This document shows positions 6,529 to 40,938 of a DNA stretch of 64,000 bases, piece by piece. The notes beneath the pieces were generated by a model. That model was not told the origin of the DNA, did no database searches, and saw nothing but the letters and a program-made list of their open reading frames with translations. The position numbers and the translations under genes are program-made. Each line of letters starts with the position of its first letter. Position 1 is the first letter of the stretch. The stretch comes from Rhodovibrio salinarum DSM 9154 (GTDB taxonomy: Bacteria; Pseudomonadota; Alphaproteobacteria; Kiloniellales; Rhodovibrionaceae): NCBI RefSeq assembly GCF_000515255.1, contig NZ_KI911559.1:3971347-4035346 (forward strand), read 5' to 3'.

Positions 6529-7347
6529 ATGCACCGCACCTTTTCCGCTTTGGCGATGGCGACAGTGATGCTTGCGCCCTTCGGGGCGGCGCATGCCGCG
6601 GCAATCACCCTCTACGACCAGGACTTCGAGAACCCGGCGAGCTACAATAACGACGGCGGCGACGTAAACATCTTCGACACAGTCAACGACAACTACGGCA
6701 ACCAGCCCGCCGGCTTTGCCTTCGCGCAGACCAACACGGTGGAGACCCTCAACGTCTCGGGGTCGCACAGGGGCGCCGGGTCGGCAGCGTTCGGGACCGG
6801 CTGGTCCGATCCCGCCGGTGTGGCCGGAGACTTCGCGATCGGCATGCTGTCGGATGCCGAGGACGACCGTCTCGGGCTGTCGTTCGATGTCGGCGCCTTT
6901 CCGTTCTTCAACGTCTTCATCGACATCTCGAGCATTGACCTCACGACCTTCGGCGGGCCGTTTGTCCCGAGCGGCGTGGAACCGATCTTCCGCTTCACCC
7001 TGTTCGACAACCCGACGGGGACCGTTGGCATCGGCGGCGGCATGATCCTCGACAGCTTCGATCTCGCCGGGACGCCGTCAGCCCCCGATACATTCGACTT
7101 CACGTCCGGCGCCTTCGGCTTGTCGACGACCGGCAACAGCAACGGCAACGTGACCCTGCAGATCGATCTGCTGCAGGGCGGTTATGCGGCGTTCGACAAT
7201 CTCACGCTGCAGGCGTCCAGTGCGCCGCCGCCGCAGAACATTCCCCTGCCTCCCAGTCTCTTGCTGCTTCTCAGCGGCCTGGCCGCGGTCGGGATCGCCC
7301 GCGTGCGCACCCGCAGGCCCGATGCGCAACGGGTGAGCGCGCACTAG
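6529..7347 (+). CDS. VPLPA-CTERM-type exported/sorted protein
   Basis: A 272-residue secreted protein. Residues 1-24 form a Sec signal peptide (ALAMATVMLAPFGAAHA cleavage pattern). The middle is beta-rich, acidic and Gly/Asp/Asn-rich with no Cys. The C-terminus has the tripartite sorting signal: IPLPPS, a hydrophobic helix LLLLLSGLAAVGIA and a basic tail RVRTRR. Such VPLPA/PEP-CTERM-like tails are processed by exosortase-type enzymes and are typical of exopolysaccharide-producing bacteria. No exosortase is in the window. The stop codon TAG lies inside the CTAG target of IS copy A, so the insertion did not alter the protein. Confidence 0.8.
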   Translation: MHRTFSALAMATVMLAPFGAAHAAAITLYDQDFENPASYNNDGGDVNIFDTVNDNYGNQPAGFAFAQTNTVETLNVSGSHRGAGSAAFGTGWSDPAGVAGDFAIGMLSDAEDDRLGLSFDVGAFPFFNVFIDISSIDLTTFGGPFVPSGVEPIFRFTLFDNPTGTVGIGGGMILDSFDLAGTPSAPDTFDFTSGAFGLSTTGNSNGNVTLQIDLLQGGYAAFDNLTLQASSAPPPQNIPLPPSLLLLLSGLAAVGIARVRTRRPDAQRVSAH

Positions 7348-7502
7348 CAGGCTACTGAAGAAATCTCGCGTTGGGCGGTAAGGGTGGGCTCGTCGCCGTC
7401 GACGAAGTGGATTTCGATCTCCAACGTGCCGTCGTCCGCGATCTCGGCGCTCCTGTCGCCGCGGCCGGCATCGTCGAGGGTCCAGTGCGCCGGATCGCTC
7501 AT
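7344..7502 (-). CDS. Shortened passenger ORF of IS copy A (52 aa)
   Basis: Starts with ATG overlapping the transposase stop by four bases (ATGA at 7499-7502) and ends with a TAG provided by the flanking CTAG. It reads MSDPAHWTLDDAGRGDRSAE then the same C-terminal 30 residues as the 114-residue versions in copies B and C (EIEIHFVDGDEPTL). It is 62 codons (186 bases) shorter, yet frame and overlap are kept. The loss removes the central beta-rich part, so function is doubtful, but the conserved frame argues against simple decay. Confidence 0.5.
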   Translation of the reverse strand: MSDPAHWTLDDAGRGDRSAEIADDGTLEIEIHFVDGDEPTLTAQREISSVAC

Positions 7503-8715
7503 GCCGCGCCTCCGATCAGTTTGGGCAAGCGGATCAGGTTGTAGGTTGTCGCGGCGAGCGTGACCTGCGCTCCGACGCGGTTCAACCCGCGATGGTGAAC
7601 CTGATGCAGACCGCCGGCGCTCTTGGCCCAGCCGAAGACCTCCTCGATGCGTTTGCGCACGCGCTGGCTGACCGTATAGCCGGGATGGCGGGTGGTTCGT
7701 CGATCGATCGCGGAGCGTCGTCGGGCCTTGTCGGTGACGTAGCTGTTCTGGGCGACGTGCGGGGTGATGCCCATCTCCCGCAGTTCCATGACGAAGTCGC
7801 CCGTGTCGAAGCCCTTGTCGGCGGCCAGCGTCTGGCCGGCGCGTGTCGGTAAGTCGGCGACCATCTCCAGGGCCGCCATCCGCTCGGCCGATCCGTGAGC
7901 CCGGGTCGTCCGCGTGCTGACGACCAGGCCATTGCAGTTCTCCATGAGCACGTGCCCCATGTAGGCGAGCCGCGCCTCCTTGCCCGGTCCCTTGCGGAAC
8001 AACCGGGCGTCCGGGTCCGTGGTCGATGCGTGGGTCTGGTTGGACCGCCGTTCGCCCCGGAAGTTGCGCGACGGGTTCCGGCCCTGGTCCCGGTTGGAAC
8101 CTCCAGAGCTTTGGTCGTCGTCATCGCCGCTGCCGCCACCCTGACCCTCGCGCGGGTGGAAGCTTTTCATTGAGGCCCAGGCGTCGATTAGGCTGCCGTC
8201 CACCGAGAAGTGCTCCCCGCTCAACAGCGGCTTGACCTTGGGATGGTCGAGCACGGCGTTAAGCAGGCGCTCGGCAACGTCACTCTCGAACAGGCGGTCC
8301 CGGTTCTTGGCGTAAACCGTCGAATGCCAGACCGGATCGTCGATCCCGAGCCCGACGAACCAGCGGAACAGCAGGTCAAACTCCAGCCGCTCCATCATCT
8401 GCCGCTCAGAGCGCAGACCGTGCAGGATCTGCAGCAGCAGCGCGCGCAAGAGCCGCTCCGGTGGAATGCTCGGGCGGCCGCGCTTGCTGTAGATCTCGGA
8501 AAAGGTCGGCGACAGCTCTTGGAGCGCGTCGTCGACGACCGTCCGGATCACCCGCAGCGGATGATCCGACGGGACGCGCTGCTCCAGGTCGACGTAGCTG
8601 AACAAGCTTCCGGAACGTCGGTCGTCCCCGCGCAACTCGGCACCTCCGTGATCGTGCTGAAAGCAGGGAATCACGGCCGGAGGGGCCGCGTCAGCCGGGA
8701 TTTTTCGGCAGCCTG
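7348..8715 (-). mobile_element. IS5/IS1182-type insertion sequence, copy A (1368 bp)
   Basis: Ends are CAGGCTACTGAA (7348) and the reverse complement of CAGGCTGCCGAA (ending 8715), imperfect versions of the 12-base ends of copies B and C. CTAG flanks the left end but TTGA the right, so no target duplication remains. It is 186 bp shorter than B and C, entirely explained by the shorter passenger ORF. It is the diverged member of the set. Confidence 0.75.
7499..8674 (-). CDS. IS5/IS1182-type DDE transposase (copy A)
   Basis: A 391-residue transposase starting at GTG 8674, which aligns with the ATG start of copies B and C; an upstream ATG at 8731 would start outside the element and read through its terminal repeat. 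Domains: DUF772-type N-terminus (LFSYVDLEQRVPSDHPLRVI), FSVDGSLIDAWASMKSF with the first catalytic Asp, ADKGFDTGDF with the second Asp, and a C-terminal RIEEVFGWAK with the catalytic Glu. The linker after SFHPREGQ is Gly/Ser/Asp rich. It appears intact. Confidence 0.88.
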   Translation of the reverse strand: MIPCFQHDHGGAELRGDDRRSGSLFSYVDLEQRVPSDHPLRVIRTVVDDALQELSPTFSEIYSKRGRPSIPPERLLRALLLQILHGLRSERQMMERLEFDLLFRWFVGLGIDDPVWHSTVYAKNRDRLFESDVAERLLNAVLDHPKVKPLLSGEHFSVDGSLIDAWASMKSFHPREGQGGGSGDDDDQSSGGSNRDQGRNPSRNFRGERRSNQTHASTTDPDARLFRKGPGKEARLAYMGHVLMENCNGLVVSTRTTRAHGSAERMAALEMVADLPTRAGQTLAADKGFDTGDFVMELREMGITPHVAQNSYVTDKARRRSAIDRRTTRHPGYTVSQRVRKRIEEVFGWAKSAGGLHQVHHRGLNRVGAQVTLAATTYNLIRLPKLIGGAA

Positions 8716-8801
8716 TTGAAACGAGGCTCACGAAATCCCCTTGGTGTGAACAGACCCAGTTCAGCGGCGCTGCCGACGACTCCCCCCGTTACTACGTGAC
8801 T

Positions 8802-8984
8802 GTGGAATCGCCAACGACAGGTGCCGGAATCGGCAACGCGTGCCAGTTTTCATAATTCATATTCTTATAATGATAAGTTTTGGTTGGCGATTCCACACTT
8901 GTTCGTACTTGATTCCATGAACCGTGGTTGCCGATTCCACCGGTTCCGTCGGCGATTCCACGAGCACCCGTTCGCGATTCCAGC
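8802..8984. repeat. Iteron-like repeat array with AT-rich core, putative replication origin
   Basis: Seven copies of a core GGCGATTCCAC occur in 183 bases: two as GTGGAATCGCC-type on the plus strand (8802, 8824) and five in the opposite orientation (about 8882, 8906, 8926, 8948, 8971), several extended by GTT or GTC. An A+T-rich stretch (8847-8881) separates the inverted pair from the five direct copies. Spacing of the last five is about 20-25 bases, near two helical turns. This arrangement is typical of theta-plasmid iteron origins and lies 560 bases before a polymerase-like candidate initiator. Binding is inferred. Confidence 0.6.
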
Positions 8985-9542
8985 TTCCCAATTGTCCGGC
9001 CATTTCCGGAAGTTAAATTGTACGGTGCGGCGCCGTCATTCCGACCGCTTCTGACGGTCGGGCGACCGTTCAATCTTTAAGCTGGCAGCTGAGTGTAAAC
9101 CTGGAGAGCTCCGTCACTCCAGCGCTCAAGAGCCCGGTCAGTTTCGCGAACCGGTGCCGAGCACGCTGCAGTCTGACAAGACCCCCGAATGTCCTGGAAA
9201 TAACGGGTACCAAGACGACTACGACGACCCCGATGAACCGGACATCAACGGCCCGAAAATGTAAACAAAATATCAGACCCGACTTGCGCTTGTGCTCCGT
9301 TTCTTGAACCCAGCCAAGCTTTCGTTCACCATGGTTCAGACAACGAAAGAGCCCGCACCGCGCCAACGGTACGGGCTCTTCAAGTAAGTTAGACATAGCC
9401 GCCGGGCGGTTGGGGCCACCACGGCAGCGAATCGCAATATTTGCATGGCTACATTAGGAGTCTGCGGACTCTAGATCAAGGCCAAATCTCTAGATTCCTG
9501 CCGGTTCACTCATCCGCTCGGCTCTGAAGGAGGAGTCGAGTC
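8985..9542. other. Non-coding leader between iteron array and initiator-like gene
   Basis: No convincing gene in 558 bases. A leftward 108-codon frame (9070-9396) has no recognisable protein features. The stretch holds one strong hairpin (9347-9380). AAGGAGGAG (9527-9535) lies 7 bases ahead of the ATG at 9543, a strong ribosome site. Confidence 0.4.
9347..9380. terminator. Terminator-like hairpin upstream of initiator gene
   Basis: Arms AAGAGCCCGCACCG (9347-9360) and CGGTACGGGCTCTT (9367-9380) pair over 14 bases with one C-A mismatch and a 6-base loop. On the minus strand the arm is followed by TCGTTGTC, on the plus strand by CAAGTAAG; neither has a long U-tract. It may insulate the origin region or attenuate the downstream gene. 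Confidence 0.4.
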
Positions 9543-11075
9543 ATGGGTGCCGTAACAGAATATGAGATTAATTTGAAAATTCAGGCCGCGTGCTTTGAAC
9601 ACGAAGACGCGGTGGGTCCGTTACAAACTCCGATCAGTCTGTCGTGGCGTCACAAGAATGCATGGCCTGCGATCAGACAGGAGTGGGGTCTAAGCGAGAC
9701 TGGTGCTGCGATCGCGATCTACTCACAGATTGCTTACCGACATGGTTTGTCGATTTCTTACAGTCGCCGGAAACAGCACTACGCGAACATTCCAGATCGC
9801 TATAAAAACCCATTGTATACCTACCGCAGCGTAACCCGCGCGGTTGATCACTTGGCCGAACTCGGCTTGATAATCCACGACAAACGTAATCCTGGCGACC
9901 TTGGTTGGCGCTCCGCGTTCCAGCCAACTCACGAGTTCGTTCAGCGAACTGAGGAGCTCTGCGCAGGTGAGAAGCCACATCCCGTAGCACCATCTGACCC
10001 CATCATTCTGCGCGACGGTGACGGCAACGCTGTCGACTACCGCGATAATCGCGACTTGGACCGCGCCCGCTCCCAGATCGATGGCCTGAATCAAGAGCTA
10101 AAGCGGCACGACGTCTGCGATGAAAACGGCAGCGTCGTGGCAGCGCCGATAGCCCGCATTTTCAACCAATCGTTTGCACGCGGCGGCCGTGCATACGCAC
10201 TCGGGGCGAGCTGGCAATCGATGCCAGGCGAAGATCGGCGTGAGATGCGCATTGATGGCGAACCGGTAATCGAGGTCGATTACAAAGCTCTACATCCGAC
10301 GCTTCTTTATGCGAAAGCCGGCCTCGAGCCGCCGGCGGATCCGTACGATATTCCCGGATGGACCGATGAAGATCGTGACTTGATCCCGCGAAGTTATCGC
10401 GGTCTGGTTAAGCTCGGTATGTTGATTGTGATCAACGCTAAGAACAAACAATCTGCACTCTCAGCGATCGCGAAAAACGAAGAAATGGCTTCATTGACCA
10501 GTCGGCAGCTCATGAAGAAGATCGGTGCTTTGATAGCGTCGTCTGGTGTGGACGCCGATACGTTGATAGCGAAAACAGCACACGAGCTTAACTGCCGCGA
10601 AGAACCGGTTTGGGCCGTATTGAATGGTGGCAACCACTGCCCACCGAACGAATTGCTGCACGAGATTGCGCGGCAACTCGGTGTCGCAGCAGCGGATCTA
10701 ATCGAGTGCTCGAAGGCTGATGTTCGAGAAGCTTTCTCGATCGCGAACGAGCTCATTGAAGCGATCAAAAAGACTCACGACCGCATCCGCGGCTATTTTC
10801 ACAGCGACGCCGGGTCGTGGTTGATGAATGTAGATTCCAGGATGGCCATGCACGTGATGCGCCGGTTCGCGAAATCGAATGACCTCGCGCTGCCCGTACA
10901 CGATTCATTTATTGTCCGCGCGAGCAAGGTGGGTCAGCTCGAAGAGGCGATGTTCGAAGCCGCTCACAAAGCCGGCATCGAACGCGTCGGTTTAGAAGAG
11001 AAGCGCGGCCGCGCGGCGACGCGCGTCGACCCGGACACCCGGCCGCCACACTCATATAAATCCGCGATTAACTGA
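9543..11075 (+). CDS. Putative initiator: winged-helix-like N-terminus plus divergent family-A-like polymerase motifs
   Basis: A 510-residue protein not assigned to a named family. Residues about 40-125 look like a winged helix (YRSVTRAVDHLAELGLIIHD), the fold used by plasmid initiators. The C-terminal half has ordered motifs resembling family A polymerases: EVDYKALHPTLLYA (motif A-like, Asp246), SYRGLVKLGMLIVINAKNK (motif B-like Arg/Lys helix, about 284-302) and LPVHDSFIV (motif C-like His453-Asp454). IFNQSFARGGRAYA and SDAGSWLMNVDSRMAMHVMRRF are further conserved-looking blocks. The gene follows the iteron array with an AAGGAGGAG site 7 bases upstream. A dual role in origin binding and DNA synthesis is inference. 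Confidence 0.5.
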   Translation: MGAVTEYEINLKIQAACFEHEDAVGPLQTPISLSWRHKNAWPAIRQEWGLSETGAAIAIYSQIAYRHGLSISYSRRKQHYANIPDRYKNPLYTYRSVTRAVDHLAELGLIIHDKRNPGDLGWRSAFQPTHEFVQRTEELCAGEKPHPVAPSDPIILRDGDGNAVDYRDNRDLDRARSQIDGLNQELKRHDVCDENGSVVAAPIARIFNQSFARGGRAYALGASWQSMPGEDRREMRIDGEPVIEVDYKALHPTLLYAKAGLEPPADPYDIPGWTDEDRDLIPRSYRGLVKLGMLIVINAKNKQSALSAIAKNEEMASLTSRQLMKKIGALIASSGVDADTLIAKTAHELNCREEPVWAVLNGGNHCPPNELLHEIARQLGVAAADLIECSKADVREAFSIANELIEAIKKTHDRIRGYFHSDAGSWLMNVDSRMAMHVMRRFAKSNDLALPVHDSFIVRASKVGQLEEAMFEAAHKAGIERVGLEEKRGRAATRVDPDTRPPHSYKSAIN

Positions 11076-11196
11076 TTGGTTTCTCAGGAAGTTAACCCGG
11101 TTCGCGACCCACATATGAGAGACATGGGTCTGGGGTGGGTTGGTTTCCCCGGTGCTTGGTGGATTGAATGGGTGTGTCGGGGGAGCATCCGGGGGT

Positions 11197-11216
11197 GCGG
11201 GGGCTTTGGCCCCCGC
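11197..11216. terminator. GC hairpin after initiator gene
   Basis: GCGGGGGC (11197-11204) and GCCCCCGC (11209-11216) form a perfect 8-base stem with a 4-base loop TTTG, followed by TTCGTTCCTCTT. It lies about 120 bases after the stop at 11075 and could terminate that transcript, though the T-tract is interrupted. Confidence 0.45.
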
Positions 11217-11398
11217 TTCGTTCCTCTTGATAAATAATCCTCTTGGATGTGTCGGGTGATTAAAGGGCGTGTTGGGCGTGATTGGTGCAACTGGGAGAGG
11301 GGGGTTATAAAGGGGGGAGAGGACCACTCAAAATCGGTCTATTGAGCTGTTTTTTTGGGTCACTGGCGACTGCTCCGGTTCTTTATCCGGCCCCCTCA

Positions 11399-11414
11399 CG
11401 CACGTGCACGTGCG
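11399..11414. repeat. 16-bp perfect palindrome
   Basis: CGCACGTGCACGTGCG is its own reverse complement and contains two overlapping CACGTG boxes. It lies in the non-coding stretch of the plasmid-like module, just before the terminator-like stem. A protein-binding dyad is plausible. Confidence 0.4.
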
Positions 11415-11424
11415 CGCGTACGAG

Positions 11425-11485
11425 AACCCTTAATCTGAACGTTTTACTGTGTCCGTCACAACGGGGCGATTTTAAGGGTTTTTTT
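11425..11485 (+). terminator. Terminator-like long-loop stem with T7 tail (possible small RNA end)
   Basis: AACCCTTAA (11425-11433) pairs exactly with TTAAGGGTT (11472-11480), and the second arm runs into a seven-T tract. The 38-base loop contains its own partial complementarity (CCGT...ACGG). This resembles the 3' end of a small structured transcript. No promoter was identified. Confidence 0.35.
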
Positions 11486-11967
11486 GGTCTTTCCGTGGGG
11501 GCGGCCTTCTTCGTAGATTTTTTTTCGGCATATACGGCGACGCATTGGTGTCTCAGATCGATTGTTAATCTGTGGTCGCGTTGGTCGTGTTCCGCGAGCC
11601 GGAAAGCTGTCTCGACAGCTCGACGTCCGTTGAAAAAATCGGTATCAGAGTTATCGTTTGATAAACCTCCTACTGTGTGCTTCAGAATCGGCCGCTTTGA
11701 GCGTTTGGATCTTCAGATGATCCGCGGGACGTCAGGCCTTCGAAAACGCTACTGTGTAGATCTGCAGGAAGGTCTCAGACCGAACGACACATGAGATGCG
11801 GTGATTGAATTTTTTAACGGTCTCTACCCCGACGGGCCGGATGGCCTCGCCGGACCTTTCGGCGCCCCGCCGCCGACGACCAGCGAAATCTGAGCGGTCG
11901 AAATTCAGATTTACCCCATATCCGGCGTGAACCGTAACGAACCGATCGTGACGAACGGAGAACGCCG

Positions 11968-12213
11968 ATGTGTAACACCCAGACATACTCGGACCCCCGC
12001 CCGCCTTTTCTCGACGTCGACGGCGCAACCGAAAAGCTCGGTGAACTCGGGTTGGCTATGTCACCACGCCAGGTGCGGAGATATTTCGACGAGCGCTCGA
12101 TTCCGTGGTTCCGGGGACCTGACGGAAAACGCTACGTCGCCGCGAACACGCTGGAAGAATGGTTGGTCAATCGTCAGCGGGAAGCGATCCATGGGGGCCG
12201 GAAATACAAGTGA
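11968..12213 (+). CDS. Excisionase/MerR-like helix-turn-helix protein
   Basis: An 81-residue DNA-binding protein: FLDVDGATEKLGELGLAMSP, then RQVRRYFDERSIPWFRGPDG (HTH_17/excisionase wing pattern) and KRYVAANTLEEWLVNRQRE. This architecture matches excisionases and small MerR-like regulators carried by mobile elements. A GGAG lies 9 bases before the ATG. It sits 277 bases before a serine recombinase, consistent with a mobile or plasmid module. Whether it controls excision or transcription is unknown. Confidence 0.6.
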   Translation: MCNTQTYSDPRPPFLDVDGATEKLGELGLAMSPRQVRRYFDERSIPWFRGPDGKRYVAANTLEEWLVNRQREAIHGGRKYK

Positions 12214-12369: not shown

Positions 12370-12461
12370 TTTGGGTGTACCCTTTTGGGTGTTGCGAGGA
12401 GACGCATCACAAGGGTCCCAAAACGCTATTCTGGTGCACCTGCACCACCGGGTCATGACCC
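12370..12461. promoter_or_regulatory. Dyad cluster upstream of serine recombinase, candidate res/operator site
   Basis: The 120 bases before the recombinase start hold direct repeats TTTGGGTGT (12370-12378, 12384-12392) with an inverted CCCAAAA (12417-12423), a dyad GGTGCA-cc-TGCACC (12433-12446) and a perfect palindrome GGGTCATGACCC (12450-12461). Resolvase genes usually have such multi-dyad sites next to them, serving as recombination site and operator. Confidence 0.4.
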
Positions 12462-12489
12462 TGGCGAGGCAGTTACAAGGTTTGCGCGC

Positions 12490-13077
12490 ATGAAAGTCGG
12501 CTATGCACGCACAAGCACAATCGACCAAAAAGGCTCGCTCGAGAGCCAGAAAGAGCGTCTGAAGAGCGAAGCTGGTTGCGAGAAGGTTTTCGCCGAGCAG
12601 ATTTCCGGCGCGGCTGAAGACCGCCCCCAGCTGAACGCGGCTTTAGATTACATCCGTGACGGCGACGAACTCATCGTCACCAAGCTCGACCGCGCCGCCC
12701 GGTCGACCGGGCACCTCCACCGGATCATCGAGTACGTCCATCAGAAGGGCGCGACGTTGCGGGTCCTGGACATGGGTCTGGATACGTCGACGAGCCACGG
12801 CCGACTCGTTGTTGGGATCCTGGGCGAGATCGCACAGTTCGAACGCGACCTTCTTCGCGAACGTCAGCAGGAAGGCATTGAGCGCACGAAGCGCGAGGAG
12901 CCCCACAAGTACCCCGGCCGGAAGGCGACGGCGCGTCAGAAGGCGCCGGACGTGATCCGGCTCCACGAAGCGCGCTGGAAGAACACGGACATCGCCCGGC
13001 ATCTGGGGATCTCGCGGAACTCCGTGCAGCGGATCCTGGTGGATTACCGGGTCGGTCGACAGCCACAAGACGTCTAG
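12490..13077 (+). CDS. Serine recombinase (resolvase/invertase family)
   Basis: A 195-residue small serine recombinase. The start at 12490 gives the canonical N-terminus MKVGYARTSTIDQ with Arg7 and nucleophile Ser9; a longer frame from 12385 adds only low-complexity residues. Further motifs: KLDRAARS (about 61), GILGEIAQFERDLLRERQQEGI (about 109, catalytic helix E) and a C-terminal HTH (NTDIARHLGISRNSVQRIL, about 164-182). Length equals Tn3-type resolvases and Hin invertases. It is followed 12 bases later by an unknown gene in the same module. Likely resolves multimers of the plasmid-like element. Confidence 0.9.
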   Translation: MKVGYARTSTIDQKGSLESQKERLKSEAGCEKVFAEQISGAAEDRPQLNAALDYIRDGDELIVTKLDRAARSTGHLHRIIEYVHQKGATLRVLDMGLDTSTSHGRLVVGILGEIAQFERDLLRERQQEGIERTKREEPHKYPGRKATARQKAPDVIRLHEARWKNTDIARHLGISRNSVQRILVDYRVGRQPQDV

Positions 13078-13089
13078 GAGGCCTCGACT

Positions 13090-13680
13090 ATGGCAAACAC
13101 CGAAGACCTCCCCGTGAAAGTCCCCGTCGACGCCGCATTCGAAGACGTTGTTCAGGCTTACGAACGGCTCTGGGCGATCGCGAACCCAGGGTCGACCGAT
13201 AACGTGACCCTTGCCGTGGCAAATATGCGGCCCGACGTGGCGCTGCGCTTGATCGATCGGTTCGGCGACAACGGCTCGGACGTGCTTTTCACGTCCTCGC
13301 TCAGCGGCCGCCGTGTGAAGCAAGAGCCGCGTGACACCGCCGAGCGCCAGGCGCGGCATTTGGTCCAGATGCTCGAGTATATGGGTTGGCGTGAGCCCGG
13401 GTCGGTTCCAACGCCGCCGCTCGAACCCGGGCGTTTGGAAGCCGCCCGGCGCATCGCCGACACGGCGCGGCATACAGACCCAGCCGAGTGGCCGGGCTGG
13501 TCGACAAGCGAGCAAATTGTCGCCGCCCTGGCGGCTAACAGGTCGGACCGACTGCCGGCGTCCTATCAGGATGCCGGCGAGGCTTGGGCCCGGCTCGATA
13601 ACAATCAACGCGCGGCCGTGCGCGAAGCCGATCCGTGGATGGCGCGCTTCTGCAAAGAAAAAGTGGATGAGGCGACCTGA
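13090..13680 (+). CDS. Hypothetical protein of the plasmid-like module
   Basis: A 196-residue, acidic, mostly helical protein starting 12 bases after the recombinase, with AGGAGG just upstream of its ATG, so the two are probably co-transcribed. No domain recognised. It contains RRVKQEPRDTAERQARHLVQMLEYMGW, a helix rich in Arg and Gln, and a C-terminal PWMARFCKEK. A regulatory or partition role would be a guess. Confidence 0.6.
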   Translation: MANTEDLPVKVPVDAAFEDVVQAYERLWAIANPGSTDNVTLAVANMRPDVALRLIDRFGDNGSDVLFTSSLSGRRVKQEPRDTAERQARHLVQMLEYMGWREPGSVPTPPLEPGRLEAARRIADTARHTDPAEWPGWSTSEQIVAALAANRSDRLPASYQDAGEAWARLDNNQRAAVREADPWMARFCKEKVDEAT

Positions 13681-13706: not shown

Positions 13707-14486
13707 ATGAGTGATGGCAACTTCGACGATGGTCCGGGTTCGATCGGGCTCGAAAATCTCTTCGACGACCCGGGAAACCCGGATTACGTGCTGCCGGGTT
13801 TGATGGCCGGAACGAACGGCCTCGTGACCGTCGACACCGAAGTTCACGGCCGTTGGTTCGGCGGACAAGCCGGGATCAGCCTTGCGATGGGCCACGATTA
13901 CACCGGGATCCTAGGCAGCGATCCGGTGAAGCGGGGCTCAACACTCGTTGTAACCGCCAGCGACGACCTGACCACCTTCCTGGACTATGACGTCCTGTCC
14001 TCTCTGACCCTGGATTGGGACCACGACACCGAGAGCCGGGACCGCCTGGCGGCCGGATTCTTCGTCGTGCGTCTTCACGATCAGCTGTCTGTGCAGAACC
14101 GCCACGACGTCAGGTCCGTCGCCGCGTTCATTGCCGATGAGCTTCTGCCGGTCGTCCAGCGGCGCGGCGACCGTCTTGTCTGGTTCGAGGGTCTCGAGCG
14201 GATGATGCCCGATCTGAGCCAGCGGAATCACCTGCCCTGGTTCCTGGACGCCCTGGACAAGCTCGGCAGGGCAACCGGCGCCGCGACCATGTCGACGACG
14301 ACCGATCCGCTTCTCATGGACGCCGGGCACTGGGCCTATCGGGCTCATATCCACGATCGGCCCGATCCCTCCGATGCCGAGAAGGTGGGCGTGATGGAAG
14401 GACCCGATAGTACCGTCACCGGTCCGGTGGCCCACGAACGCGTTCTGCATCGGACCGACCACGGGTCGCTGTATGTAACCGGGTAG
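13707..14486 (+). CDS. RepA-helicase-like (AAA_25) protein with degenerate Walker motifs
   Basis: A 259-residue protein whose layout resembles RSF1010-type RepA/AAA_25 ATPases: YVLPGLMAGTNG (25-38) sits where these proteins have the P-loop, GSTLVVTASDD (77-87) matches the strand usually reading L.LSAEDD, RLVWFEGLERM (156-166) occupies the Walker B strand (LVVIDPL type), and LDALDKLGRATGAATMSTTTD (180-200) matches the helix and sensor strand before the HHxxK motif. The P-loop Lys, the Walker B Asp and the HH are all missing, so it is probably not an active ATPase. It follows the resolvase operon. Family link is inferred from pattern alone. Confidence 0.45.
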   Translation: MSDGNFDDGPGSIGLENLFDDPGNPDYVLPGLMAGTNGLVTVDTEVHGRWFGGQAGISLAMGHDYTGILGSDPVKRGSTLVVTASDDLTTFLDYDVLSSLTLDWDHDTESRDRLAAGFFVVRLHDQLSVQNRHDVRSVAAFIADELLPVVQRRGDRLVWFEGLERMMPDLSQRNHLPWFLDALDKLGRATGAATMSTTTDPLLMDAGHWAYRAHIHDRPDPSDAEKVGVMEGPDSTVTGPVAHERVLHRTDHGSLYVTG

Positions 14487-15697: not shown

Positions 15698-15895
15698 ATG
15701 GCGGCGCAAGACACGCTTGAAGCCTTCGAGAGCGATGAAACCGACCCTATCAAATTGGCCCTATTAACTCGGTTTCGCGAAATGTTGAAGGACTCTGATA
15801 TACCGACTGACACGTATTCGCAGCGCCTTCGCGAAACACTTGAACAATACATTGAAGAGAATTCACATGCGCCTGATACGCCTGAAAGCCCGTAA
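15698..15895 (+). CDS. Small acidic protein, first gene of Rad50-like ATPase operon
   Basis: Sixty-five residues with 17 Asp/Glu, no Cys and mostly helical content (LALLTRFREMLKDSDI, YSQRLRETLEQYIEE). AAGGAGGA lies 8 bases before the ATG, a strong signal that it is translated. Its 3' end overlaps the ATPase start at 15867 by 29 bases, so the two are translationally coupled. No family recognised; it may be a partner or inhibitor of the ATPase. Confidence 0.6.
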   Translation: MAAQDTLEAFESDETDPIKLALLTRFREMLKDSDIPTDTYSQRLRETLEQYIEENSHAPDTPESP

Positions 15896-18311
15896 TTTCC
15901 GGGGTATCGGAGATACCGGCTTCGATATAAACGTGGCTGACGAACTCGTCCTATTTTACGGCCCGAACGGCTACGGTAAGACAAGCATTACTGAGGCAAT
16001 TGAATGGTTGTTCTACGGGGAAACCAAGCGACGTAAGCACGGCGAGCAGTATTGGGCGACTGAATATCAAAACACATACCGCAATGCTCACGACGGCTTC
16101 CCGGTACACGTCGAGGCCGATGTACGTTTCGAAAATGGGGAGACGTTCCGTCTCGCCCGAACGATGGATGGCAACGCCAGCAGTGAGGCCGGTCAGACCT
16201 TCGTTAACGATCAAGAAGCCCTTTTCAGCAGCATCGGATTAACGCCGAACGAAGCATCGTATCCGGTCGTAGCCCAACACGGCTTACAAACGTTCATCCA
16301 TACACGCCCCAAGGACCGCCGCGATGCGATCGCAGCCGCTCTAGGCCTGGATGATCTGATCGCTTTTCGGACGGCCCTGGAAGGTGCACGTCGCTCCTAC
16401 GCGAATTCGCCGCCGCGCGAACTCGTTCAAGCGCGTCAAAAGGTTACCGAACTCGGCAACGAGCTGGAGCAAACTGATATTGCCATCGACGTCGCGAAAA
16501 AATGGCAAAAAGGGAAGGCGGACGAACGTGATATCGATGCAATCAGGGCCGTTGCGCAGCGACTTACGGGCTGCGGTGCTGAGGATCTGAACACACTCCT
16601 TGATGCCCTTCGCGAACGTAGACGTGATGTTGGCAAGTCGGTTTTTGACCCGACGCGGCTCTCGCTTCGGGAACACCCAGGGCGCGGAATCGAGGAAATA
16701 GAGAAGGCCCAGCAAAAGGTCACCGAACAGCTGGACGCCCTTGCTCGGACGCTCGATGGCCTCATCACGAAAGCGGCGTCGGCCTACTCAACCGCGTACC
16801 TCAAGTTCTGGACAGAAGGTTTACGGCTGGCCGATGGGTCGACGACGTGCCCGATGTGCGAACACGATACCCTTCAGCCAGATCGTCAGGATGAACTGCG
16901 GCGCCGAATTGCGGAAAGCCAGAAAGCGCTCGAGCTTGACGCAGGCCTCCGTCAGGCAGTGCAAGAACTGAGCGAAGCCCTCCAGACACTGGAGCAAGCT
17001 GCGACGGAGATCGGTCCCGCGCCTCCGGACCCCGAGGAAAAACCGCTTCTTCGTTCGCTTTTCGATCCGGGCTCGCAGGAGGTCGAGGCGTTCTTGCATG
17101 CCTACGATCAACTCCATGACGCCAGGCGTGAGATGAACCAAGCTGGCCGAGCCGTCCAAGAGATGGTGGATAGCCTCCCTGCCAGACTTGGGACCACGGG
17201 CGCGGACTTTGCCGCAATAAAAGAGGCATACCGGGGCGCCCACGCGGCCCTGAAGCAGCATCTGACAACCTACCTCGGTGCGCTAAAGTCATACTACGAG
17301 GTGTGGGCCGACTTCTCACAAGCTCTCGATAAGCGGATCGCAACTGGTCTGGAGATCCGACGCGTCGACGCTGTCGGGAGAGCGTTAAGGTCTTCAGATG
17401 AAGTGCGGCGTATACGCGTCTCCGACCAAGCCCTGAACTCGGCCGGCGAGTTGCTGCAACGTGTCGAGAAAACGTTGCAAACCAGCCAACGCGAAAGGTT
17501 GGATTCAAGAGGAGCTGAGGTCCGGAATCTCTACGATATGCTGAACCCCGGCGCCGATGTTGGATTTGAGACAATGGAGCCGGGCACCAATAAGCTCAAC
17601 CTCCACGCCCGGTCCTTCGGAAAACGAATGCCAGCGGCGCCCAATCTAAGCCAGTGTCAATTGAACTGCTTGGGCTTGGCCGTCTGGTTAATGCGGGCAA
17701 CGACGCCGACATCACCATTCGGGTTTATCGTTCTCGACGATCCCGTCCAATCCATGGACGACGAGCACTACGAGGCATTGTTATCTGAACTTATCCCATG
17801 CCTTTTGGATCAGTATGGGAAGCAGGTTATTATCTTGTCTCACTTTCAGAACCTCGTTGAACGGACACGAAGTCTTAACCCCGCTCGTGAAAGCCGAGTC
17901 TATAATATCGAGCAATATGGCATCCACGGACCCGAAATCGTGGAACAGGCAGCCATCAAGCAAAGGCTTTCAAGCATTAAACACCTGGTCAAAGGTAACC
18001 AACATAACCGTGACATGGCGGTGGATCGTCTTCGCGTTCTCGTCGAGACGTTCATTCGCGAGCTTTACGTACAGAAATGTGGCGGCCCCACCCCGGCAGA
18101 ATACGACCGGGCAACAGCACGTCAGCTTCTTCAACTTTTTCAGAACATACCTGGCACCACACCGAAAGAACATAACCTTCTGAGTGACACGGTCGGTTTT
18201 GCCGACCCGGCGCATCACACGGACCAAAAATACACGACCCCGAGCAAAGAACGCATTCAGCCGCACATCAGCCGGCTAGAACAACTCATGCGAACCCACG
18301 GCTTGCTGTAA
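15867..18311 (+). CDS. Rad50/SbcC-like AAA ATPase with zinc hook
   Basis: An 814-residue SMC/Rad50-type ATPase. Walker A GPNGYGKTS at 32-40, coiled-coil regions on either side of a CPMC zinc-hook motif (Cys328, Cys331), signature LSQCQLNCLGLAVWL, Walker B and D-loop FIVLDDPVQSMDDEH, then a His switch region (LSHFQ). About 130 further residues form a C-terminal helical domain with RLRVLVETFIRELY and GFADPAHHTD. The start at 15867 puts MRLIRLKARNFRG first, as in RecF/Rad50 proteins; 15840 would add nine unlikely residues. No Mre11-like nuclease is adjacent, so it is not a standard SbcCD. Genes of this type often belong to defence systems. Confidence 0.85.
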   Translation: MRLIRLKARNFRGIGDTGFDINVADELVLFYGPNGYGKTSITEAIEWLFYGETKRRKHGEQYWATEYQNTYRNAHDGFPVHVEADVRFENGETFRLARTMDGNASSEAGQTFVNDQEALFSSIGLTPNEASYPVVAQHGLQTFIHTRPKDRRDAIAAALGLDDLIAFRTALEGARRSYANSPPRELVQARQKVTELGNELEQTDIAIDVAKKWQKGKADERDIDAIRAVAQRLTGCGAEDLNTLLDALRERRRDVGKSVFDPTRLSLREHPGRGIEEIEKAQQKVTEQLDALARTLDGLITKAASAYSTAYLKFWTEGLRLADGSTTCPMCEHDTLQPDRQDELRRRIAESQKALELDAGLRQAVQELSEALQTLEQAATEIGPAPPDPEEKPLLRSLFDPGSQEVEAFLHAYDQLHDARREMNQAGRAVQEMVDSLPARLGTTGADFAAIKEAYRGAHAALKQHLTTYLGALKSYYEVWADFSQALDKRIATGLEIRRVDAVGRALRSSDEVRRIRVSDQALNSAGELLQRVEKTLQTSQRERLDSRGAEVRNLYDMLNPGADVGFETMEPGTNKLNLHARSFGKRMPAAPNLSQCQLNCLGLAVWLMRATTPTSPFGFIVLDDPVQSMDDEHYEALLSELIPCLLDQYGKQVIILSHFQNLVERTRSLNPARESRVYNIEQYGIHGPEIVEQAAIKQRLSSIKHLVKGNQHNRDMAVDRLRVLVETFIRELYVQKCGGPTPAEYDRATARQLLQLFQNIPGTTPKEHNLLSDTVGFADPAHHTDQKYTTPSKERIQPHISRLEQLMRTHGLL

Positions 18312-18831: not shown

Positions 18832-19176
18832 CTAGCAGGCTGCTGAAGAAATCTCGCGTTGGGCGGTAAGGGTGGGCTCGTCGCCGTCGACGAAGTGGAT
18901 TTCGATCTCCAACGTGCCATCGTCGGTGATCTCTGCGTTCCCGTCGCCCCAGACCTCGTCACCCTCGTCGAAGCCTGCGAACCGGAAGAACACGATCTGG
19001 CGGCCGTACTCGACGTCCAGGTCGAGGTGCACGGCCCCGAATTCCATCTCGCCGTGGCCGGCATCGTCGAGGGTGAAGTGCGCCGGGTTGGCGAGGTCCA
19101 GGAAGTCCCGGTTCCACATGTCGGAGCCGGTGATCCGCCAGCGGCCGACCACCTCGCAATGCACCGGATCGGTCAT
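18832..19176 (-). CDS. Passenger protein of IS copy B (114 aa)
   Basis: Begins with ATG overlapping the transposase stop (ATGA, 19173-19176). The protein reads VVGRWRITGSDMWNRDFLDL, then alternating beta strands and acidic turns (EYGRQIVFFRFAGFDEGDEV, LEIEIHFVDGDEP). From memory it resembles small stand-alone hypothetical proteins with a GRWRI-MDLWD start and a C-terminal GDDS turn, so the IS appears to have captured a cellular gene. The last codons ISSAAC run through the terminal repeat, and the TAG stop comes from the CTAG target site. The protein is the same as in copy C. Confidence 0.65.
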   Translation of the reverse strand: MTDPVHCEVVGRWRITGSDMWNRDFLDLANPAHFTLDDAGHGEMEFGAVHLDLDVEYGRQIVFFRFAGFDEGDEVWGDGNAEITDDGTLEIEIHFVDGDEPTLTAQREISSAAC

Positions 19177-20389
19177 GCCGCGCCCCCGATCAGCTTGGGC
19201 AAGCGCACCAGGTTGTAGGCGGTCGCAGCGAGCGTGACCTGCGCCCCGACACGGTTCAGGCCGCGATGGCGGACCTGATGCAGACCGCCGGCGCTCTTGG
19301 CCCAGCCGAAGACCTCCTCGATGCGTTTGCGCACGCGCTGGCTGACCGTATAGCCGGGATGGCGGGTGGTTCGTCGATCGATCGCGGAGCGTCGTCGGGC
19401 CTTGTCGGTGACGTAGCTGTTCTGGGCGACGTGCGGGGTGATGCCCATCTCCCGCAGTTCCATGACGAAGTCGCCCGTGTCGAAGCCCTTGTCGGCGGCC
19501 AGCGTCTGGCCGGCGCGTGTCGGTAAGTCGGCGACCATCTCCAGGGCCGCCATCCGCTCGGCCGATCCGTGAGCCCGGGTCGTCCGCGTGCTGACGACCA
19601 GGCCATTGCAGTTCTCCATGAGCACGTGCCCCATGTAGGCGAGCCGCGCCTCCTTGCCCGGTCCCTTGCGGAACAACCGGGCGTCCGGGTCCGTGGTCGA
19701 TGCGTGGGTCTGGTTGGACCGCCGTTCGCCCCGGAAGTTGCGCGACGGGTTCCGGCCCTGGTCCCGGTTGGAACCTCCAGAGCTTTGGTCGTCGTCATCG
19801 CCGCTGCCGCCACCCTGACCCTCGCGCGGGTGGAAGCTTTTCATTGAGGCCCAGGCGTCGATTAGGCTGCCGTCCACCGAGAAGTGCTCCCCGCTCAACA
19901 GCGGCTTGACCTTGGGATGGTCGAGCACGGCGTTAAGCAGGCGCTCGGCAACGTCACTCTCGAACAGGCGGTCCCGGTTCTTGGCGTAAACCGTCGAATG
20001 CCAGACCGGATCGTCGATCCCGAGCCCGACGAACCAGCGGAACAGCAGGTCAAACTCCAGCCGCTCCATCATCTGCCGCTCAGAGCGCAGACCGTGCAGG
20101 ATCTGCAGCAGCAGCGCGCGCAAGAGCCGCTCCGGTGGAATGCTCGGGCGGCCGCGCTTGCTGTAGATCTCGGAAAAGGTCGGCGACAGCTCTTGGAGCG
20201 CGTCATCGACGACCGTTCGGATCACCCGCAGCGGATGATCCGGCGGGACACGCTGCTCCAGGTCCACGTAGCTGAACAGGCTTCCGGAACGGCGGTCATC
20301 CCCGCGCAACTCGCTACCTCCATGACCGTGATGCCAGCACAGAATCATGGCCGGAGGAGCCGCGTCAGCCCGGATTTTTCAGCAGCCTG
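18836..20389 (-). mobile_element. IS5/IS1182-type insertion sequence, copy B (1554 bp)
   Basis: Terminal inverted repeats CAGGCTGCTGAA (18836) and its complement ending at 20389, flanked on both sides by CTAG (18832-18835, 20390-20393), a 4-base target duplication. Contains transposase and passenger gene. Encodes the same proteins as copy C, in opposite orientation, so the two moved recently. Confidence 0.92.
19173..20348 (-). CDS. IS5/IS1182-type DDE transposase (copy B)
   Basis: A 391-residue transposase starting MILCWHHGHGGSELRGDD, with the same domain order as copy A: LFSYVDLEQRVPPDHP N-terminal domain, FSVDGSLIDAW (catalytic Asp), ADKGFDTGD (Asp), RKRIEEVFGWAK (Glu). It differs from copy A at a few residues (for example LHQVRHRG against LHQVHHRG). 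ATG lies 41 bases inside the right end. The stop overlaps the passenger start. Predicted active. Confidence 0.92.
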   Translation of the reverse strand: MILCWHHGHGGSELRGDDRRSGSLFSYVDLEQRVPPDHPLRVIRTVVDDALQELSPTFSEIYSKRGRPSIPPERLLRALLLQILHGLRSERQMMERLEFDLLFRWFVGLGIDDPVWHSTVYAKNRDRLFESDVAERLLNAVLDHPKVKPLLSGEHFSVDGSLIDAWASMKSFHPREGQGGGSGDDDDQSSGGSNRDQGRNPSRNFRGERRSNQTHASTTDPDARLFRKGPGKEARLAYMGHVLMENCNGLVVSTRTTRAHGSAERMAALEMVADLPTRAGQTLAADKGFDTGDFVMELREMGITPHVAQNSYVTDKARRRSAIDRRTTRHPGYTVSQRVRKRIEEVFGWAKSAGGLHQVRHRGLNRVGAQVTLAATAYNLVRLPKLIGGAA

Positions 20390-20476
20390 CTAGAGCGTTT
20401 CAGTGATTGATTGAATCGAGAGGGATTGAACGAACCCGCTATCGCTGGGGTTAGCGGATAACATGTGCGAGCGGGT

Positions 20477-38956: not shown

Positions 38957-39391
38957 ATGCAGGTGATCGACGAAGTACGAGAGGACTTCACCCATCTCAT
39001 AAAGGCAGACCTCGGCTCCACGCCGTCAGCGAACCAGTGTCTGCACGGTCCGCTAGTTAGCTGGCTGCACCTGAAAGCCCGCCAAGTACCGCAACGACCC
39101 AGACAAGTGCATACCTCGCCAGAGGTCGAGGCTAAGAAACGCCAGTTTCCAGCGATCACCCAGGTGATTTCGTCCCTTGAACGTGGGGACGATATGACCC
39201 CGTATCTGGGAAGTAGCGTTCGTGGTTCAAAAGCCACGGAAAGTACAGCGGATCAGCTCTTCAACGATTGGAAGATAAATCACTTCCACCTTGGAAGGTT
39301 TTTCGAGAAACCCGACAAGGTCGACCGGACCCAGCATCTATTGTTTGTGCTCGTTCGCGCGGACCATGCGATCGCCCTAGCAGGCTGCTGA
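38957..39391 (+). pseudogene. Conserved hypothetical protein interrupted by IS copy C
   Basis: Frame of 144 codons, of which about 140 are genuine: MQVIDEVREDFTHLIKADLG, QCLHGPLVSWLHLKARQVP, INHFHLGRFFEKPDKVDRTQ and HLLFVLVRADHAIAL. I recall a widespread family of hypothetical proteins with a HLHLG and a RTKHLLFV motif. The IS starts at 39381, so the last residues are element-derived. Beyond the IS at 40939 no continuing homology is evident. Probably inactive. Confidence 0.65.
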
Positions 39392-40934
39392 AAAATCCGG
39401 GCTGACGCGGCTCCTCCGGCCATGATTCTGTGCTGGCATCACGGTCATGGAGGTAGCGAGTTGCGCGGGGATGACCGCCGTTCCGGAAGCCTGTTCAGCT
39501 ACGTGGACCTGGAGCAGCGTGTCCCGCCGGATCATCCGCTGCGGGTGATCCGAACGGTCGTCGATGACGCGCTCCAAGAGCTGTCGCCGACCTTTTCCGA
39601 GATCTACAGCAAGCGCGGCCGCCCGAGCATTCCACCGGAGCGGCTCTTGCGCGCGCTGCTGCTGCAGATCCTGCACGGTCTGCGCTCTGAGCGGCAGATG
39701 ATGGAGCGGCTGGAGTTTGACCTGCTGTTCCGCTGGTTCGTCGGGCTCGGGATCGACGATCCGGTCTGGCATTCGACGGTTTACGCCAAGAACCGGGACC
39801 GCCTGTTCGAGAGTGACGTTGCCGAGCGCCTGCTTAACGCCGTGCTCGACCATCCCAAGGTCAAGCCGCTGTTGAGCGGGGAGCACTTCTCGGTGGACGG
39901 CAGCCTAATCGACGCCTGGGCCTCAATGAAAAGCTTCCACCCGCGCGAGGGTCAGGGTGGCGGCAGCGGCGATGACGACGACCAAAGCTCTGGAGGTTCC
40001 AACCGGGACCAGGGCCGGAACCCGTCGCGCAACTTCCGGGGCGAACGGCGGTCCAACCAGACCCACGCATCGACCACGGACCCGGACGCCCGGTTGTTCC
40101 GCAAGGGACCGGGCAAGGAGGCGCGGCTCGCCTACATGGGGCACGTGCTCATGGAGAACTGCAATGGCCTGGTCGTCAGCACGCGGACGACCCGGGCTCA
40201 CGGATCGGCCGAGCGGATGGCGGCCCTGGAGATGGTCGCCGACTTACCGACACGCGCCGGCCAGACGCTGGCCGCCGACAAGGGCTTCGACACGGGCGAC
40301 TTCGTCATGGAACTGCGGGAGATGGGCATCACCCCGCACGTCGCCCAGAACAGCTACGTCACCGACAAGGCCCGACGACGCTCCGCGATCGATCGACGAA
40401 CCACCCGCCATCCCGGCTATACGGTCAGCCAGCGCGTGCGCAAACGCATCGAGGAGGTCTTCGGCTGGGCCAAGAGCGCCGGCGGTCTGCATCAGGTCCG
40501 CCATCGCGGCCTGAACCGTGTCGGGGCGCAGGTCACGCTCGCTGCGACCGCCTACAACCTGGTGCGCTTGCCCAAGCTGATCGGGGGCGCGGCATGACCG
40601 ATCCGGTGCATTGCGAGGTGGTCGGCCGCTGGCGGATCACCGGCTCCGACATGTGGAACCGGGACTTCCTGGACCTCGCCAACCCGGCGCACTTCACCCT
40701 CGACGATGCCGGCCACGGCGAGATGGAATTCGGGGCCGTGCACCTCGACCTGGACGTCGAGTACGGCCGCCAGATCGTGTTCTTCCGGTTCGCAGGCTTC
40801 GACGAGGGTGACGAGGTCTGGGGCGACGGGAACGCAGAGATCACCGACGATGGCACGTTGGAGATCGAAATCCACTTCGTCGACGGCGACGAGCCCACCC
40901 TTACCGCCCAACGCGAGATTTCTTCAGCAGCCTG
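39381..40934 (+). mobile_element. IS5/IS1182-type insertion sequence, copy C (1554 bp)
   Basis: Terminal repeats CAGGCTGCTGAA at 39381 and its complement ending at 40934, flanked by CTAG on both sides (39377-39380, 40935-40938). Same length and same encoded proteins as copy B, but in the plus orientation. Confidence 0.92.
39422..40597 (+). CDS. IS5/IS1182-type DDE transposase (copy C)
   Basis: 391 residues, protein identical to that of copy B. Catalytic Asp in SVDGSLIDAW, Asp in ADKGFDTGD, Glu in RIEEVFGWAK. ATG 41 bases inside the left end. Stop codon overlaps the passenger start (ATGA at 40594-40597). Predicted active; it disrupts the conserved gene at 38957. Confidence 0.92.
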   Translation: MILCWHHGHGGSELRGDDRRSGSLFSYVDLEQRVPPDHPLRVIRTVVDDALQELSPTFSEIYSKRGRPSIPPERLLRALLLQILHGLRSERQMMERLEFDLLFRWFVGLGIDDPVWHSTVYAKNRDRLFESDVAERLLNAVLDHPKVKPLLSGEHFSVDGSLIDAWASMKSFHPREGQGGGSGDDDDQSSGGSNRDQGRNPSRNFRGERRSNQTHASTTDPDARLFRKGPGKEARLAYMGHVLMENCNGLVVSTRTTRAHGSAERMAALEMVADLPTRAGQTLAADKGFDTGDFVMELREMGITPHVAQNSYVTDKARRRSAIDRRTTRHPGYTVSQRVRKRIEEVFGWAKSAGGLHQVRHRGLNRVGAQVTLAATAYNLVRLPKLIGGAA

Positions 40935-40938
40935 CTAG
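40594..40938 (+). CDS. Passenger protein of IS copy C (114 aa)
   Basis: Identical to the copy B passenger: GRWRITGSDMWNRDFLDL N-terminus, beta-rich middle, acidic C-terminus reading through the terminal repeat, TAG stop in the CTAG target duplicate. The ATGA overlap makes it translationally coupled to the transposase. No catalytic motif is visible. Possible roles include regulation of transposition or a host benefit; neither is shown. Confidence 0.65.
   Translation: MTDPVHCEVVGRWRITGSDMWNRDFLDLANPAHFTLDDAGHGEMEFGAVHLDLDVEYGRQIVFFRFAGFDEGDEVWGDGNAEITDDGTLEIEIHFVDGDEPTLTAQREISSAAC

Follow-up and report, generated by a model that had tools for sequence, protein, structure and literature searches.

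A seven-unit repeat array around an A+T-rich core in Rhodovibrio salinarum: a candidate iteron-type cis-site of an integrated mobile module

Described systems with comparable repeats

Iteron-type theta origins carry direct repeats of ~17–22 bp, and DnaA boxes are usual, though not universal, among them. Plasmid Rep proteins bind iterons via winged helices and destabilise the adjoining A+T-rich region (PMC4081077). Short direct repeats are also found at the ends of IS21-family insertion sequences, which are described as having two or more of them, two being required, and a terminal CA (PMC10122671).

The locus described here lies in a window (the whole 64,000-nucleotide stretch of DNA that was analysed) and recalls both systems. 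Like RK2 oriV and F oriS, it has a series of direct repeats, each about two helical turns long, beside an A+T-rich region, and a winged-helix-like domain is predicted in the product of a neighbouring gene. Unlike them, it has neither DnaA boxes nor a known Rep family, its copies are oppositely oriented on either side of the core and ~560 bp away from the gene, and it is known from sequence alone, as a candidate origin. With IS21 ends of the IS1491/ISPpu7 type (L179 and L180) and with those of a further element (L167) it shares units of 22–23 bp and an ATTCCA core, and with IS1491 an uneven layout in which one end has five units and the other has fewer, whereas it lacks istA/istB and has an inside-out orientation.

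The array

Direct reading, a repeat finder and anchored units agree on an array of seven copies of a 14-base unit with the consensus GTTGSCGATTCCAC at 8802–8983, two of them on the minus strand (8802–8837) and five on the plus strand (8883–8983). The first-pass annotation had reported seven copies, two inverted against five, around an A+T-rich tract; both the copies and the tract were borne out, two units being loose, and the repeat-finder check that it had suggested recovered the array.

8802–8815, minus strand: array unit, GTTGGCGATTCCAC on the minus strand (reading, repeat finder, anchored units)
8824–8837, minus strand: array unit, GTTGCCGATTCCGG on the minus strand (reading, anchored units)
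8845–8883, no strand: A+T-rich core, 79% A+T (composition scan)
8883–8896, plus strand: array unit, GTTGGCGATTCCAC (reading, repeat finder, anchored units)
8905–8918, plus strand: array unit, degenerate, GTACTTGATTCCAT (anchored units)
8927–8940, plus strand: array unit, GTTGCCGATTCCAC (repeat finder, anchored units)
8948–8961, plus strand: array unit, GTCGGCGATTCCAC (repeat finder, anchored units)
8970–8983, plus strand: array unit, GTTCGCGATTCCAG (repeat finder, anchored units)

When aligned on their GATTCC anchors (8889, 8911, 8933, 8954 and 8976 on the plus strand; 8804 and 8826, reading GGAATC, for the minus-strand units), the units display a contiguous conserved 14-bp block followed by eight bases without consensus, with anchor spacings of 22, 22, 21 and 22 bp in the plus set and 22 bp in the left pair. 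The 11-base core GGCGATTCCAC is exact in three of the seven units, and has one mismatch in one and two in another. A count by hand gives the unit at 8826 three mismatches and that at 8911 four, so 'seven copies of the core' is a loose description for these two. The array is non-coding, and the tract between its two sets stands out in a window of 38% A+T, the 38-mer at 8848 being the joint most A+T-rich 38-mer of the 64 kb. The locus thus has the helix-phased direct repeats (21–22 bp) of iteron-type theta origins and, by composition, their adjoining A+T-rich region, a candidate site of unwinding.

What is unusual is the clustering of the core, rather than the number of single matches. CGATTCC occurs six times in the 182 bp of the array, against a maximum of four copies in 60 second-order simulated windows and, again, of four in the real window once the array is removed. 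In the 900 bp before the gene at 9543–11075, 12-mers with at most two mismatches reach six copies, versus two to three in 10 first-order simulations. Single GGCGATTCCAC matches (at most two mismatches) are not enriched window-wide (19 observed versus 31.8 expected from shuffles), and a 7-mer scan found the array to be the window's sole cluster with at least five copies.

Beyond the window, a 231-bp query spanning the array had one match in its own genome and none in the other 57 of the 58 genomes searched. Of the eight copies of the 12-mer GGAATCGSCAAC in the genome, four lie inside the array and four stand alone. DNA-similarity searches with the array returned only short matches in plasmids (440 records; best E 2 among the 20 matches listed) and in phages (15 records; best E 0.2), and the three Rfam matches were all far under gathering scores. 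The pair pattern GSCGATTCCA-N9..13-GSCGATTCCA was found in one of 385 genomes of the class, the organism's own, and in two of 398 of the phylum, the second being a matching Magnetococcales stretch (L094) that sits inside a 392-codon open frame; the looser pair CGATTCCA..SGATTCCA was found in five of the 385 class genomes: that of the organism itself, one where the match is the IS21 element L167, and three that have two copies only. A three-copy pattern picked out 91 stretches in species genomes and two viral ones, all scored by script; three of the six that were read in context (L106, L110 and L111) read as IS21-like units. In viral sequences, GATTCCAC-N6..9-GTTGSCGATTCC had no match, while the pair pattern gave 100 stretches and the 14-mer at least 120. 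Among the 220 viral core-bearing loci listed, a long array is present in one (L203), and relatives of the 9543–11075 polymerase are encoded in none.

Setting in an IS-framed segment

The genome is a single contig of 4.18 Mb; the window is therefore chromosomal, and no plasmid state was seen in this assembly. The features that frame and accompany the array are the following.

7344–8715, minus strand: IS5-family insertion sequence, left frame of the segment (family matches, repeat comparison)
9347–9380, no strand: strong hairpin, a terminator-like stem without T run (-23.3 kcal/mol, z -4.3, equalled by 0 of 200 shuffles)
9543–11075, plus strand: gene for a 510-aa protein, candidate array binder, with a predicted winged-helix-like domain at residues ~37–128 and a predicted divergent family-A polymerase fold at ~150–500
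11968–12213, plus strand: 81-aa protein, weak HTH_17 match (16.2 bits, family cut-off 27)
12385–13077, plus strand: serine recombinase, resolvase domain and HTH (family matches)
18832–20397, minus strand: second IS copy, right frame, sharing 97% identity with the first across 1233 bp

The array starts 86 bp to the right of the first IS5-family element, which has the same orientation as the second; a third copy, at 39373–40938, is inverted. Between the first two lie the array, the hairpin (at which a terminator scan lists none), the 510-aa gene, the weak HTH protein, the serine recombinase, genes at 13090 and 13707 without noteworthy family matches, and an ATPase, as surveyed by family searches on a subset of the open reading frames between the IS copies. 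The GC content is ~55% in 8720–11967, 62–65% in the recombinase and the next two genes, and 62% in 20500–64000. We infer that the segment is mobile and perhaps of mixed origin.

Two of the genes within the segment and one beside it call for a remark of their own. The ATPase (15840–18311) is of the SMC/RecN type, 823 aa long and encoded by DNA of 56% GC. A likeness by eye of 13707–14486 to a plasmid RepA helicase was unsupported by Pfam, PHROGs, NCBIfam, a PDB sequence search and plasmid tblastn, and was dropped. To the left of the first IS copy, 6529–7347 encodes a protein with a weak PEP-CTERM-type match, far under the cut-off.

The neighbouring gene and its relatives

The product of 9543–11075 belongs to no Pfam family and matches phrog_4756 at 1.2e-63, a family listed as of unknown function, and a literature search found no paper naming it. 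It thus resembles proteins of large Vibrio and Aeromonas phages but, unlike these, is encoded in a bacterial chromosome. Relatives were found by tblastn in 102 phage records, mostly from Vibrio and Aeromonas, in three plasmid records and, with its own genome counted each time, in four of the 61 order genomes and 23 of the 385 class genomes. In the Thioclava plasmid pTElox9 (L147, 5701–8780), a relative of the gene (311 aa as annotated) starts 73 bp behind an IS21 istA/istB pair.

A model of the full protein (mean pLDDT 79.7) aligns in structure comparison with DNA polymerases of family A and with single-subunit RNA polymerases, the best VIA row having Z 10.8 over 238 residues at 4.7 Å. Foldseek against the PDB listed rows of the same polymerase families, none at E <=0.001, while against predicted phage proteins it reached E 5.8e-19. 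In a 28-sequence alignment, D246 is conserved in 28 of 28, R286 and K290 in 27 and H453 and D454 in 26; we take these, placed by eye, to be motifs A (Asp), B (R..K) and C (HD) of a family-A polymerase, so that both a predicted palm fold and candidate motif residues are present. About 70 residues (~318–390) stand between the second and third conserved motifs, a block that the closest homolog (L021) lacks, as do most of the 27 rows aligned with it.

MarR-type regulators are winged helices, and they make up, together with SarA-type ones, nearly all the rows that Foldseek listed for residues 28–145 folded alone (pLDDT 89.8), with none in the PDB at E <=0.001; the best structural alignment of this part (Z 7.8) is middling by the tool's own scale. 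The product may thus bind DNA and polymerise, and with a predicted winged-helix-like domain and a divergent family-A polymerase fold in one protein an origin-binding polymerase is conceivable.

If the array were an origin, it would be expected to travel with its initiator gene, and the first-pass annotation had proposed to judge the matter by its presence at loci with the same gene. We compared 27 bacterial loci whose homologs of 9543–11075 have 20–42% identity, taking 353–900 bp upstream and at most 900 bp downstream, and ran a whole-locus 7-mer scan on these and on two plasmid loci. An array of this motif was found at none of the 27, which speaks against the origin idea on the test chosen for it; ahead of the gene of the closest homolog (L021, 42%), too, none was seen by reading. 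Replication origins change fast, and the homologs are distant, so this absence lowers the origin reading but does not kill it.

Some of the relatives have their own nearby repeats, of other motifs. Upstream scores of more than three copies were seen at L027 (seven copies, an A/T hexamer run) and L029 (four copies, which read as a coding repeat); four-copy clusters precede the polymerase relative at L045 (CTACACC, two against two, 676–761) and L048 (CTCATCA, 2693–2868), and four-copy clusters of other motifs follow the gene at L021 and L048, where repeats appear in both scans. A repeat match at L025 proved to be a single real copy of GTTGGCGA. Upstream of the polymerase relative, L026 and L027 are origin-like in another way, with A+T-rich runs and words resembling TTATCCACA.

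A candidate iteron-type cis-site

The array is ordinary in kind. Our preferred reading, to which we would give a probability of about 0.4, is that it serves an integrated mobile module as an iteron-type cis-site to which a protein binds, most likely as origin or control region, and that it is possibly inactive. The seven units would be binding sites of one sequence-specific DNA-binding protein, either the product of 9543–11075 or another protein of the element. Their phasing by two helical turns would place the bound molecules on the same face of the DNA and allow cooperative binding, on both sides of an A+T-rich core that should melt easily. The site would then act in cis in initiation or its control, as an origin or something like it, with priming and replication starting there now or formerly, and the winged-helix/polymerase gene downstream would be another part of the same element. 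The reading is underpinned by the array, its phasing and its core, by its uniqueness among the genomes searched, and by the predicted folds of the neighbour.

The origin layout claimed in the first-pass annotation fared unevenly. The iteron-like spacing and the A+T core stand, and the array's place inside an IS-framed segment, near a gene with a predicted winged-helix-like domain and polymerase fold, is in accord with an origin of some sort, but no DnaA box (at most one mismatch) was found in 8500–10794 and no known Rep family was recognised among the genes tested in the segment. With core and spacing shared moreover by some IS21 ends, the specific label 'theta-type origin' is unsupported, and so is the notion of a former or present plasmid-like replicon. 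Also against an origin are the ~560 bp and the strong hairpin that lie between array and gene, and the lack of any polymerase relative among the 220 viral core-bearing loci.

A bolder version, which we consider improbable, has the 9543–11075 protein combine the roles of initiator and polymerase: the 22-bp repeats would be read by its winged helix, the core would open and its family-A palm would start the first strand. Replication would then start without DnaA or a classical Rep, and the phage relatives in phrog_4756 would also be origin-binding polymerases. With a winged-helix/polymerase gene as neighbour, the origin idea can be put directly to the test. An origin here would mark a type of mobile replicon whose initiator combines a DNA-binding winged helix with a small polymerase of family A, and the phage family would gain a function.

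Alternative explanations

The array might instead be of the operator or partition type, a set of repressor or segregation-protein sites that perhaps control a promoter in the core and have no role in replication. Operators flanking a promoter are a usual repressor layout, and the sites here do lie on both sides of a candidate promoter, TATAAT being readable in the A+T core at 8866–8871; candidate binders are at hand in the weak HTH protein and the HTH-bearing recombinase of the segment. However, a scan of 8700–9600 found no sigma-70-like site, no credible gene start was seen by reading just downstream of the array, and the hairpin at 9347–9380 might end a transcript ahead of the polymerase gene. 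We regard this explanation as rather unlikely.

A relic of IS21, in which the left pair would be a right end, the five copies a left end and the units IstA sites, the transposase genes having been lost, is one we find unlikely. Its appeal lies in the resemblance of the window's core, spacing and 5-and-2 layout to IS1491: IS1491-type ends in plasmids of the Pseudomonas group (L179 and L180) have five left and approximately three right 23-bp units, their cores being ATTCCA, and a hairpin was read ahead of istA, while a whole IS21 element in a class genome (L167, in G273) has three left and four right 23-bp units with the same core. Multiple terminal repeats of 22–23 bp are thus common to both, and an ATTYCR core was present in 11 of the 15 elements read. 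Between the would-be ends, however, the window has no istA and istB, and 72 IstA/IstB-like frames from IS21 loci left no trace in it (best match E 0.023). The cores at the two ends do not face inward as in IS21 but outward, so that the arrangement is inside-out and the would-be tips lie 49 bp apart, which means that two separately lost IS21 copies would be needed. By reading, there is no target duplication at 8801/8983, and the window's counterpart of the pre-istA hairpin (9040–9062) is a weak one (z -1.8, equalled by 9 of 200 shuffles).

IS21 repeats carry a second conserved block besides the 6-bp core. For the bases beyond that core, the window's units score a mean of -2.5, below each of ten IS21 elements (-1.99 to 6.8, leave-one-out; L167, L180–L185, L187, L189 and L191) and not clearly above window control sites (-3.56, p 0.18), although two of the ten elements also fall below 0. 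Twelve further IS21 regions had been taken from plasmids; L186, L188, L190 and L192 (no ATTYCR chain by reading) and L179 (a near-duplicate of L180) were left out of this comparison, in which the unit-picking script admits a few chance members and L185 is one base off register, its score being lowered. A scan of 30 IS21 loci for clustered GATTCC, the only core sought, returned L167 only, and the genome's own IS21 copy has no GATTCC repeat. For one stretch, in Telmatospirillum beside a RepA_C gene (L111), an initial reading as an iteron origin was dropped, as the left end of IS1491-type elements in plasmids of the Pseudomonas group matches it at 81% over 81 bases.

The core may be less diagnostic of IS21 than these likenesses suggest. 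A virus record of 70.8 kb (L203), a relative of mycobacteriophage DrLupo, has ten direct GATTCC repeats at 9076–9287, with a GCGATTCC core, ~22–24 bp spacing and, by reading, a non-coding position, as in the window; its copies are, in contrast, all of one orientation and its genes are other ones, the comparison taking in the locus up to its right flank. No IS21 gene was found among the open reading frames read to the left of that array, so that a GATTCC core alone may not diagnose IS21. Were the window's array an IS21 relic nonetheless, some IS21 terminal repeats would mimic the spacing, copy number and core of iteron arrays, a caution that a genome scan can take such repeats for hidden origins.

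A miniature transposon (MITE) or a chance cluster is very improbable: 8803–8982 does run from TG to CA with ends that match as inverted repeats at 12 of 13 positions by reading, but the array is single-copy, no target duplication was seen by reading, and the cluster of six 7-mers was unmatched in 60 simulations.

Further to the right in the window, the IS5-family copies at 18832–20397 and 39373–40938 are 99.9% identical and mutually inverted, so the stretch between them could flip.
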